From Helicobacter aurati (GTDB lineage Bacteria; Campylobacterota; Campylobacteria; Campylobacterales; Helicobacteraceae), in contig NZ_NXLW01000001.1 in NCBI RefSeq assembly GCF_003364265.1, positions 124,001 through 188,000 on the forward strand: a stretch of DNA of 64,000 nucleotides. The letters run 5' to 3'. The notes under the pieces are model-generated. The model had not been told where the DNA came from, did not search any database, and saw only the letters and a list, made by a program, of their open reading frames with translations. Position 1 is the first letter of the stretch. Each line of letters begins with the position of its first letter. Below are positions 50,342 through 52,927 of the stretch, in pieces. The position numbers and the translations under genes were made by a program.

Positions 50342-50454
50342 TCGTTTCTCCTTGAATATTTTGTCTCCCGACTCAATTTGCAAAAGCATAACATGAAAAT
50401 CTCAAACATCAATTTTGCTTCTTTCAATCATCTTTAATCAATGGCGCAAGTCAT

Positions 50455-50490: not shown

Positions 50491-50532
50491 CCTAAAAAAC
50501 AGCAAAATGTAAACTTTTTCTTTACATTTTTC

Positions 50533-50562
50533 TTGACAGATAACAACAAAATGTTTTATAAT
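50533..50562 (+). promoter_or_regulatory. Consensus sigma-70 promoter of the small RNA
   Basis: TTGACA (50533-50538) and TATAAT (50557-50562) are both perfect and 18 bp apart. Helicobacter promoters normally lack a good -35, so this pair is unusually strong. It points into a non-coding stretch; the expected start is near G50569. Confidence 0.85.
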
Positions 50563-50568
50563 TTTCTT

Positions 50569-50722
50569 GCGTTTTTAAAACGTAGGTTATTTATTCTTAA
50601 GGTTACCCCTCCAATTCCTTAAAGATAAAAGCCTTTTTTCAAAATCTTTGCCTACCCCACATGTAAAGATTTTGTTACTCTCCACTCCTTTTATATGCTC
50701 CTTAGGTTTTTGGGAGCTTTTT
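50569..50722 (+). ncRNA. Predicted small regulatory RNA with C-rich hairpin loops
   Basis: Between the promoter and a terminator lies about 150 nt with no open frame of note but strong structure. Hairpin 1 is CGTTTT/AAAACG at the 5' end (about 50570-50582). Hairpin 2 has TTAAGG (50597-50602) pairing with CCTTAA (50617-50622) around the loop TTACCCCTCCAATT. Hairpin 3 has a 10-bp perfect stem (50640-50649 with 50665-50674) around GCCTACCCCACATGT. A single-stranded CTCTCCACTCC follows, then the terminator. Loop CCUCC mimics the 16S anti-Shine-Dalgarno core, as in sRNAs that block ribosome sites. I cannot name the RNA; 6S RNA is unlikely because the fold is not one long rod. Confidence 0.7.
50697..50722 (+). 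terminator. Rho-independent terminator of the small RNA
   Basis: GCTCC (50697-50701) pairs with GGAGC (50713-50717), followed directly by TTTTT (50718-50722). The loop is 11 nt. Confidence 0.75.
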
Positions 50723-50760
50723 ATTTTCATTTTACTCCTTTGTTTTATTTAAGATTTAGT

Positions 50761-50793
50761 CTCTTTGAGTTAAAAAGCTCAAAGGGGGTTTTT
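50761..50793 (+). terminator. Second terminator-like hairpin
   Basis: CTCTTTGAG (50761-50769) pairs with CTCAAAGGG (50778-50786), with one G-T wobble, followed by GG and TTTTT (50789-50793). It lies about 40 nt after the sRNA terminator and could stop read-through or end a longer form of the RNA. Confidence 0.65.
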
Positions 50794-50895
50794 GTATTTC
50801 TTAATTTTCTTCTTAGAATCCTAGTTTATAAATGACAAATAAAAGAATTTAAGCTATACTAAAATATTTTTACAACTTTCTTAAGAAGGCATTGT

Positions 50896-51804
50896 ATGAA
50901 AGCAACAAAAACGTTACAGAAATATATTTCTCAATCTCTACTAGGAATATTTATTATGTGTTTCACCGCTTCTTGTGCAAAACAAGATGCAGCTCAATAT
51001 GATGATCCGAATATAAGTACTGACGAAATTGTCGCACTACACCAAACCATGAATGAAAAACATGGATTAACTACTAGCTATTTCGCAAGTATTGCATTAG
51101 CCAATGACGAATATGATAAAGCCTACAAGCTTTACTACCAAGAATGCGCCAAAGGCTCGACAATAGATTGTTTGAATGCTTATTATATAGGTGAAGAACG
51201 AGCACTTGCAGAATACAATAGCCAAATATTTGCAAGGCAACTTGCAAAAAGTATTCAACAAAACCTTAAAGCATGTAAAAATGATATTAGCCTTGGTTGT
51301 GTGAATACATTCTTTGCCTTTGAGGCACTTGACGATAATGAAGAATTTCTCACAAATACTATTTTTCCTGTACTAGAAAAAATCAATGACGAACATATAG
51401 CCGATAAAACGTTGAATCTCACACAAAAAGAATGTGAAGATGATGACGGTACTTCTTGTTTTTATCATGCACGAGTTCTAAGGGTTATTGATAACTATGC
51501 AGATGTAGAATATTACATTGATAAGGGCTTAAAATTAGGTTACGCGCTAGCACCTTTTGTACAATTGCCATTACAATCGCCACAAACTATTGGATACTTT
51601 AAGGAATCATGCCAACTTAATGAAGCTCTGTCTTGTAGATATGTAGGATATTGGTTGGACAAATATGAAAATGACCAAGCACATGCCAAGAGTTTCTACC
51701 AAAAAGCATGTAAATTGGGCTTAGAATCCGCTTGTATAGAAAGCCATAAATCACCTCAAATCCCAAAAGATGAGCTAGGCTCACCTGTCATTCCTCGCAG
51801 ATAA
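50896..51804 (+). CDS. Sel1-like cysteine-rich lipoprotein
   Basis: This 302-aa protein has an N-terminal hydrophobic stretch ending in a good lipobox (FTASC, Cys about 27). The body contains degenerate Sel1-type helical pairs with cysteine pairs (YYQECAKGSTIDCLNAY; NLKACKNDISLGCVNTF; FKESCQLNEALSCRYVGYW; FYQKACKLGLESAC). Only the last two or three are close to consensus. It is probably an outer-membrane or periplasmic scaffold related to the Hcp group. A TATACT -10 (50855-50860) and AAGG precede the ATG. The PP-loop gene follows after 55 bp. Confidence 0.8.
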   Translation: MKATKTLQKYISQSLLGIFIMCFTASCAKQDAAQYDDPNISTDEIVALHQTMNEKHGLTTSYFASIALANDEYDKAYKLYYQECAKGSTIDCLNAYYIGEERALAEYNSQIFARQLAKSIQQNLKACKNDISLGCVNTFFAFEALDDNEEFLTNTIFPVLEKINDEHIADKTLNLTQKECEDDDGTSCFYHARVLRVIDNYADVEYYIDKGLKLGYALAPFVQLPLQSPQTIGYFKESCQLNEALSCRYVGYWLDKYENDQAHAKSFYQKACKLGLESACIESHKSPQIPKDELGSPVIPRR

Positions 51805-51859: not shown

Positions 51860-52927
51860 ATGAAAAACACACAACCAATAAGTGCCGTAGCCCTTTTTAG
51901 CGGTGGTTTAGATTCTATGATTTCCATGCAGCTTTTAGCTGAACAAGGCATCAAAGTCTATGCCCTTAATTTCAATATTGGTTTTGGTAGCAACAAAGAT
52001 AAAAGCGAATATTTTTACAATGCAGCAAAGCAAGTAGGCGCAGAGCTTATCCAAATTGATATTGCTAAACAATTCTTTGATAACATTCTTTTTAAACCAA
52101 AATTTGGTTATGGTAGATTTTTTAATCCTTGTATTGATTGCCATGCAAATATGTTTTCGCATGCTTTCGCCAAAATGCTAGAACTCAAGGCAAACTTTGC
52201 TATTAGCGGTGAAGTGTTAGGACAAAGACCCAAAAGTCAGAGGCGAGAGGCTTTAGATCAAGTTCGGCAGCTAGTACGAAAGATAGGTGAAAATCCTCTC
52301 TATGATTCTATTCTTAGCCGTGATGGCAGCGATACTACAAAACCAAAAACATTAGATGAACTTATTGTGCGACCTATGAGCGCAAGACTTCTGCCTGAAA
52401 CTTTCCCTGAAAAAATGGGGTGGATACAAAGAGAAAAACTTCTAGACGTAAGCGGTAGAAGCAGGCAAACACAGCTTGCACTATTAAAAAAATACGGCTG
52501 GAAATATCATGAAAAGCCAGGCGGAGGATGTTTGCTTACGGATACCTCAGTGGCACTAAAAATTAAAGATATGGTATCGCATAGACAAGTTGTCTTTGAG
52601 GACTTGGCAATCTTTAAAACAGGTCGCTACATGGTACTAGACAATGGTGCAAGATTAATTGTTGCACGTAATGAGGAAGAAAATAAGAAACTTGATATTA
52701 CCCATGATAAGATGGACAAAATTATCGCAAAGGATGCTAAAGGACCGTTGGCTTTACTTAATAAAACCGCCACAGATTCTGAAAAAATGCTTGCTGGACG
52801 TATCGTGCTTGGATACTGCAAAACAGACTCTAATCAATCATATAATGTACAAGTTGGGGAGAGCCATTTTGATTTGATTCCTTATTCCAAAGAAGAATCA
52901 AGCAAATACCTTTTGCTGCATTCATAA
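51860..52927 (+). CDS. PP-loop ATPase, probable tRNA thiolation-type enzyme
   Basis: This 355-aa cytoplasmic protein has the PP-loop SGGLDS (about 14-19), which binds ATP and adenylates a substrate, then NPCIDCHANMF with a Cys pair that could carry sulfur. It recalls the MnmA and ThiI type of tRNA sulfurtransferases. The C-terminal part (about 225-345: GGGCLLTD, FKTGRYMVLDNGARLIVARNEEEN) looks like an NFACT-R (DUF814)-type domain, an RNA-related module. A role in tRNA modification is inferred, not shown. The ATG follows GGGGAG. Confidence 0.65.
   Translation: MKNTQPISAVALFSGGLDSMISMQLLAEQGIKVYALNFNIGFGSNKDKSEYFYNAAKQVGAELIQIDIAKQFFDNILFKPKFGYGRFFNPCIDCHANMFSHAFAKMLELKANFAISGEVLGQRPKSQRREALDQVRQLVRKIGENPLYDSILSRDGSDTTKPKTLDELIVRPMSARLLPETFPEKMGWIQREKLLDVSGRSRQTQLALLKKYGWKYHEKPGGGCLLTDTSVALKIKDMVSHRQVVFEDLAIFKTGRYMVLDNGARLIVARNEEENKKLDITHDKMDKIIAKDAKGPLALLNKTATDSEKMLAGRIVLGYCKTDSNQSYNVQVGESHFDLIPYSKEESSKYLLLHS

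Follow-up and report, generated by a model that had tools for sequence, protein, structure and literature searches.

IsrR of Staphylococcus represses translation by pairing with Shine-Dalgarno (SD) sites (PMC9410917), and the alpha-r14 or cuckoo RNAs of the Rhizobiales, such as NfeR1, consist of hairpins that carry ultraconserved, C-rich unpaired motifs (PMC10746234). RepG, a small RNA (sRNA) of the Hfq-less H. pylori, pairs through a C/U-rich loop with a phase-variable G repeat (PMC8295292, PMC8322730); its host is devoid of ProQ as well (PMC8322730). In Campylobacter jejuni, CJnc230 keeps an anti-SD segment unpaired between its stem-loops (PMC11187230). For small RNAs of H. bilis, and likewise for C-rich anti-SD sRNAs of Helicobacter, a literature search returned no paper.

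The DNA analysed here, a 64-kb stretch of the 1.97-Mb genome of Helicobacter aurati (hereafter, the window), holds a 506-nt intergenic gap in which an earlier note, made from the sequence alone, had proposed an undescribed sRNA. The gap is flanked on the left by a family-9 glycosyltransferase gene on the minus strand, with its start at 50389, and on the right by a plus-strand gene from 50896, which has a lipoprotein-like sequence and no Pfam match. The elements of the sRNA gene are the following:

50504–50530, no strand assigned: palindrome AAAATGTAAA-N7-TTTACATTTT, immediately 5′ of the −35 box; conserved in 12/13 homologues, the spacer being variable
50533–50562, plus strand: promoter TTGACA-18-TATAAT, 12/12 sigma-70 consensus; TTGACA invariant in 13/13 homologues
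50569–50583, plus strand: stem-loop 1, predicted by folding; the hairpin is kept in 13/13 homologues by differing sequences, e.g., GUGCUUUAAGGAAACUUAAGCAC
50584–50634, plus strand: stem-loop 2, predicted by folding; apical loop UUACCCCUCCAAUU at 50603–50616, with a loop core CCCCUCCAA identical in 13/13
50640–50674, plus strand: stem-loop 3, predicted by folding; 12 bp, with the loop CUACCCCACAU at 50652–50662
50675–50696, plus strand: element E3, single-stranded UUACUCUCCACUCCUUUUAUAU, within which UACUCUCCACUCCUUUU is identical in 13/13
50697–50722, plus strand: hairpin 4 and U run, predicted by folding; variable, in most homologues
50724–50757, plus strand: element E4, single-stranded UUUUCAUUUUACUCCUUUGUUUUAUUUAAGAUUU; invariant, with CATTTTACTCCTTTGTTTTATTT identical in 13/13
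50760–50797, plus strand: hairpin 5 with a U run; scored best in the terminator scan, with 12 pairs and a TTTTT tail

Next but one to the sRNA gene, at 51860–52924, lies a gene that fuses an NFACT-R_2 RNA-binding domain to a HUP-type (tRNA methyltransferase/QueC-like) domain, an adjacency also kept in H. muridarum.

The claim of a consensus promoter was borne out, since the exact TTGACA-18-TATAAT arrangement matched only once within the 64 kb, where 0.12 matches were expected by chance. The invariance of TTGACA in all the homologues is noteworthy, because RpoD promoters of Helicobacter are usually said to have no −35 box. With regard to the adjoining palindrome, the pattern ATGTAAAN3-8TTTACAT has a single site in the H. 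aurati genome, the one at the sRNA promoter, and its matches in other genomes lie mostly within coding sequence or are not shared; a regulon of this palindrome was rejected on these grounds. It appears to differ from the Fur consensus and is a probable operator, its position at the promoter implying control by a repressor or an activator. The sRNA promoter reads as strong and probably regulated.

With the start site placed at about 50569 from the position of the −10 box, the RNA from 50569 to 50722 folded at −35.2 kcal/mol (z = −4.3), a value equalled by 0 of 200 shuffles. The C-rich loops fell where they had been claimed to lie, at 50603–50616 and 50652–50662, and a third run described as single-stranded, CUCUCCACUCC, was likewise unpaired at around 50679–50689. 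No conserved open reading frame was found, as start codons, frames and lengths vary among the homologues, which agrees with the earlier statement that no protein is encoded; neither a tRNA nor a tmRNA was found in the interval. The architecture of three hairpins and a terminator within about 150 nt held for the folds and the loop positions, but the RNA probably does not end solely or chiefly at 50722. E4 and a second terminator hairpin are conserved past this point in the 13 homologues (the stem of hairpin 5, 50760–50787, being kept in 13/13 through different sequences), and therefore the transcript is probably about 229 nt long, reaching approximately 50797, possibly alongside a shorter species of about 150 nt. 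Hairpin 5 with its U run is probably the main terminator, while hairpin 4 with its own would act as a weak first terminator or pause site.

The RNA is carried by 13 of the 14 genomes of the genus, among them those of H. bilis, H. rappini, H. trogontum, H. muridarum, H. saguini and H. didelphidarum, as a rule as a single copy per genome. It was detected by blastn in 12 of the 13 other genomes, and the only one without a match is an 87%-complete assembly. A covariance search, as the earlier note had suggested, was run with a model built from stem-loops 2 and 3 and the segment that follows them; it matched the H. aurati genome and the same 12 relatives with E values from 1e-12 to 1e-23, stems and loops being preserved, and by score nothing convincing was found elsewhere in 121 family genomes or 399 order genomes. 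Several individual matches were set aside as chance: two of model R1 outside the genus, one antisense to the nrdA start (L109, genus g9) and one with broken stems (L110), one of model R2 antisense to coding sequence (L169), and matches of an E3 17-mer in other phyla, where the surrounding structure is missing.

All 13 sequences, each folded individually, share one fold. In the model alignment, 96.7% of the cells were paired and 10 of the 23 pairs were changed on both sides (22 cells), values of which none was reached in 500 shuffles, and structures slid along the alignment were paired at about 50% or less; this alignment was fitted to the structure and its numbers lean towards it, while the 13 folds were made sequence by sequence. 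Both sides had changed in 8 of the 11 modelled pairs of stem-loop 2, and in stem-loop 3, whose loop CCCAC is found in 12/13, 99% of the cells were paired, with changes between UA and AU and between UA and CG. In contrast to the changing stems, four unpaired C/U-rich segments are nearly fixed (CCCCUCCAA, CCCAC, UACUCUCCACUCCUUUU and CAUUUUACUCCUUUGUUUUAUUU). The genes that flank 11 of the homologues differ between species, and therefore the RNA constitutes an independent unit. As read from these alignments, the compensatory changes show that the RNA is kept throughout the genus by selection on its stems together with its unpaired C/U-rich segments.

Rfam 15 yielded no family at the gathering score for the window and 8 homologous loci, the best sub-threshold matches being chance-like, and there was no plasmid match. 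Genus-wide covariation, changing neighbours and the missing Rfam match confirm the observation of an undescribed, free-standing sRNA at this site, and in a stronger form than first stated. The RNA has a promoter and a terminator of its own, no ORF, a free-standing location and a conserved structure with conserved unpaired seeds, as is general for trans-acting sRNAs, and the best reading of these sequence features is a new small RNA family of a known general kind, the trans-acting base-pairing sRNAs.

With IsrR, the Helicobacter RNA shares a genus-wide, free-standing design of several stem-loops and a terminator, a conserved operator (here a probable one) at the promoter, and C-rich stretches left single-stranded both in loops and next to a stem. 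It differs in that IsrR has Fur boxes and the present RNA an apparently different palindrome, in that the stems of IsrR barely covary, whereas those described here covary strongly, and in that the C-rich loops of the Helicobacter RNA are not enriched for SD pairing and an anti-SD/anti-AUG segment is added. With the alpha-r14 RNAs it has in common fixed, unpaired C-rich motifs carried by stems whose sequence varies, but the latter carry three copies of CCUCCUCCC in distant bacteria, as opposed to four unlike segments here, and CCUCCUCCC was absent from all 13 homologous sequences. By analogy, the general mode would resemble that of IsrR and the alpha-r14 RNAs.

Like RepG, it is a Helicobacter sRNA with a C/U-rich loop in an Hfq-less host. 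However, RepG is encoded between hp1043, an orphan response regulator gene, and hp1044, whereas the neighbours of the present RNA vary, and in the varied flanks of 11 homologues the displayed frames did not resemble a response regulator. Moreover, RepG pairs via its terminator loop, while the C-rich loops of the new RNA are internal, on stem-loops 2 and 3, and its terminator loop is A/U-rich; in other Helicobacter genera, the model found nothing convincing apart from one RNA of a second genus, treated below. An anti-SD stretch left unpaired among stem-loops is shared with CJnc230, which differs in its length of 98 nt, its position downstream of flgE, its dependence on RpoN and its anti-SD sequence CCUU, and for which C-rich loops are not described. 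Over the 399 genomes of the order, the model returned, beyond its own genome, one chance match only, antisense to coding sequence.

The idea that the RNA masks ribosome sites was evaluated with 1039 genes called by a simple script in 1.25 Mb of the genome. For each segment, duplex energies at start regions (−35 to +20) were set against those of mid-gene windows and of 20 shuffles of the segment, accessibility being ignored. E4 (UUUUCAUUUUACUCCUUUGUUUUAUUU), the complement of the whole unit of SD site, spacer and AUG, formed duplexes of ≤ −12 kcal/mol at 254 of the 1039 starts as against 64 of the 1039 coding windows, exceeding all 20 shuffles (71–168). The figures for E3 were 158 starts vs 94 coding windows, inside the shuffle range of 79–226. 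Pairing with ribosome sites was thus supported in part, through the single-stranded ACUCCUUUU and mainly through E4, which lies outside the interval originally noted; it was not supported for the C-rich loops as general anti-SD elements.

On balance, we consider it somewhat probable that the locus encodes a free-standing, trans-acting sRNA of about 229 nt whose 3′ segments repress several mRNAs at their starts without Hfq, whose loops recognise another conserved, G-rich partner, and whose promoter is controlled through the palindrome. In this mechanism, the RNA would be transcribed from its own promoter under a palindrome-binding repressor or activator, and the unstructured 3′ segments, CAUUUUACUCCUUUG more than ACUCCUUUU, would pair with translation start regions, with repression of several mRNAs as the presumed outcome and no involvement of Hfq. 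The two C-rich apical loops on their long stems would bind the G-rich partner, most simply specific sites in a few mRNAs, and could thereby supply the choice of targets that the generic 3′ segments lack. The conservation of the loop sequence could also reflect a protein partner.

A weak match of the model (22 bits) in the genus g10, which we believe to be the H. hepaticus/H. cinaedi group, led to an undescribed, structured intergenic RNA present in all 11 genomes of that genus (L116–L126, at around 1500–1770 in each). In the loci whose reading frames were inspected, an OmpR-type response regulator gene follows just downstream of it; the product of this gene has as its best solved-structure match 2k4j, an H. 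pylori ArsR entry, which serves as a lead to an arsR-like gene. Twelve pairs of this RNA were changed on both sides (0 of 500 shuffles). With GGUUAUCCCCCUCCAA, it presents almost the same loop as the RNA of the H. aurati genus; the apical loop, GGUUAUCCCCCUCCAACUU, nearly equals the GGUUACCCCCUCCAAUUU of most H. aurati relatives, and the terminator loop contains CCCCAC. In the 121 family genomes, the pattern GTTAN{0,2}CCCCTCCAA found both RNAs and four other places, three of them in or antisense to coding sequence. Separately, the 5′ domain of the g10 RNA, GAUGGAUUAACCCAU, is conserved, and close to the promoter of this RNA lies a palindrome that is rich in A and T (TGTTAAAT...ATTTAACA-like).

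The order of the loops is the same in both RNAs and the stem layout is different, with cross-model scores of 8–22 bits; on these sequence comparisons, kinship of the two is weakly supported, and the likeness may stem from common origin or from convergence. A near-identical loop on different scaffolds in two genera suggests a shared partner, and a loop partner common to both is likely, whichever origin holds. Tentatively, two Helicobacter genera may use differently built sRNAs with a near-same, invariant 16-nt C-rich loop that would bind, in place of a ribosome site, either a protein or a conserved G-rich RNA dedicated to it. With the anti-SD/anti-AUG tail added, such an RNA would have two parts, a generic blocker of start sites and a specific loop that steers it, and would work in bacteria that lack Hfq.

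That the C-rich loops instead modulate phase-variable genes by binding their homopolymeric G tracts, the mode described for RepG in H. pylori (PMC8295292), appears unlikely. About 35 tracts of 8–14 G occur in 1.25 Mb of the H. aurati genome, including one at 424–435 of the window, and upstream of called starts, such tracts make up several of the strongest partners of the stem-loop 2 loop (−17 to −22 kcal/mol). However, the tracts are mostly found within coding sequences or at their starts and not in 5′ leaders, the C runs are only 4–5 long, and the loop flanks (UUA...UCCAA and CUA...ACAU) mismatch the context TAC-G(n)-CA that most tracts share (contigs C1–C41 of the H. aurati genome). G10 tracts occur in 25/25 genomes of both genera, mostly in large numbers, and their presence therefore does not discriminate. 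Improbable as well is a role of the invariant loops as protein-binding sites, by which the RNA would titrate or guide a C-rich-RNA-binding protein: the loops do not vary, yet no conserved partner for them emerged among the mRNAs, and a near-same loop sits on unrelated stems in the second genus, but there is no candidate protein and the two unpaired 3′ segments resemble mRNA-pairing segments.

Still less probable is the original proposal that the CCUCC loops act as general anti-SD elements. The complementarity of CCUCC to GGAGG is plain, and starts carried GGAGG five times as often as coding windows did (34 vs 7). Nevertheless, while AAGGAG, the other site attributed to many genes of the window, was present in 135 of the 1039 start regions of the 1.25-Mb sample (AAGGA in 423), GGAGG occurred in only 3.3% and GGAGGGG in none; moreover, GGAGG start sites were not common to orthologues, with none shared and 8 unshared (5 and 3) in 181 orthologue pairs with genome G013. 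The target prediction suggested for the loops gave duplexes of ≤ −12 kcal/mol at 54 starts vs 76 coding windows for loop 2 and at 32 vs 49 for loop 3, both within the shuffle range and so no stronger than in coding sequence or with shuffled loops. On these figures, the anti-ribosome-site idea suits the 3′ segments and not the loops. Finally, a cis-acting leader, a 3′ UTR fragment, a transposon remnant or chance, to which only the location about 100 nt upstream of the same-strand gene at 50896 would lend itself in this genome, is refuted for the genus as a whole, given the RNA's own promoter and terminator, varying neighbours, usual single copy and stem covariation.

Regarding specific targets of the trans-acting sRNA favoured here, a pattern search for a universal E4 target, run on 14 genomes and allowing up to 3 mismatches, had the sRNA gene itself as its sole common match, and no conserved predicted target stood out among the 181 orthologue pairs. 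The best loop target was the start of dctQ, which encodes a TRAP transporter small permease (L310:1490–1515, reading TTTGGAGGGGAATGAAGATG); here, a perfect 9-bp complement of the stem-loop 2 loop lies over the SD site, the sole such start-site match in this genome. It was rejected as a conserved target, the complement being absent or altered in relatives, and the perfect 9-mer complement TTGGAGGGG was likewise rejected, as it was not a shared feature of starts. A lead to nrdA in genome G013 showed a loop duplex of only −15.4 kcal/mol, which is not exceptional.

Taken together, the earlier find of an sRNA holds, the main mechanism claimed for it has to be corrected, and interest centres on the invariant loops. 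To our knowledge, few trans-acting sRNAs have been described in Helicobacter, all of them from H. pylori. The present family occurs in nearly all sampled species of one enterohepatic genus, H. bilis included, and every sampled species of a second genus has an RNA with a near-same loop. With the covariance models, the candidate operator and the four pairing segments that this family supplies, the way in which an sRNA chooses its targets without Hfq would become testable in cultivable species.
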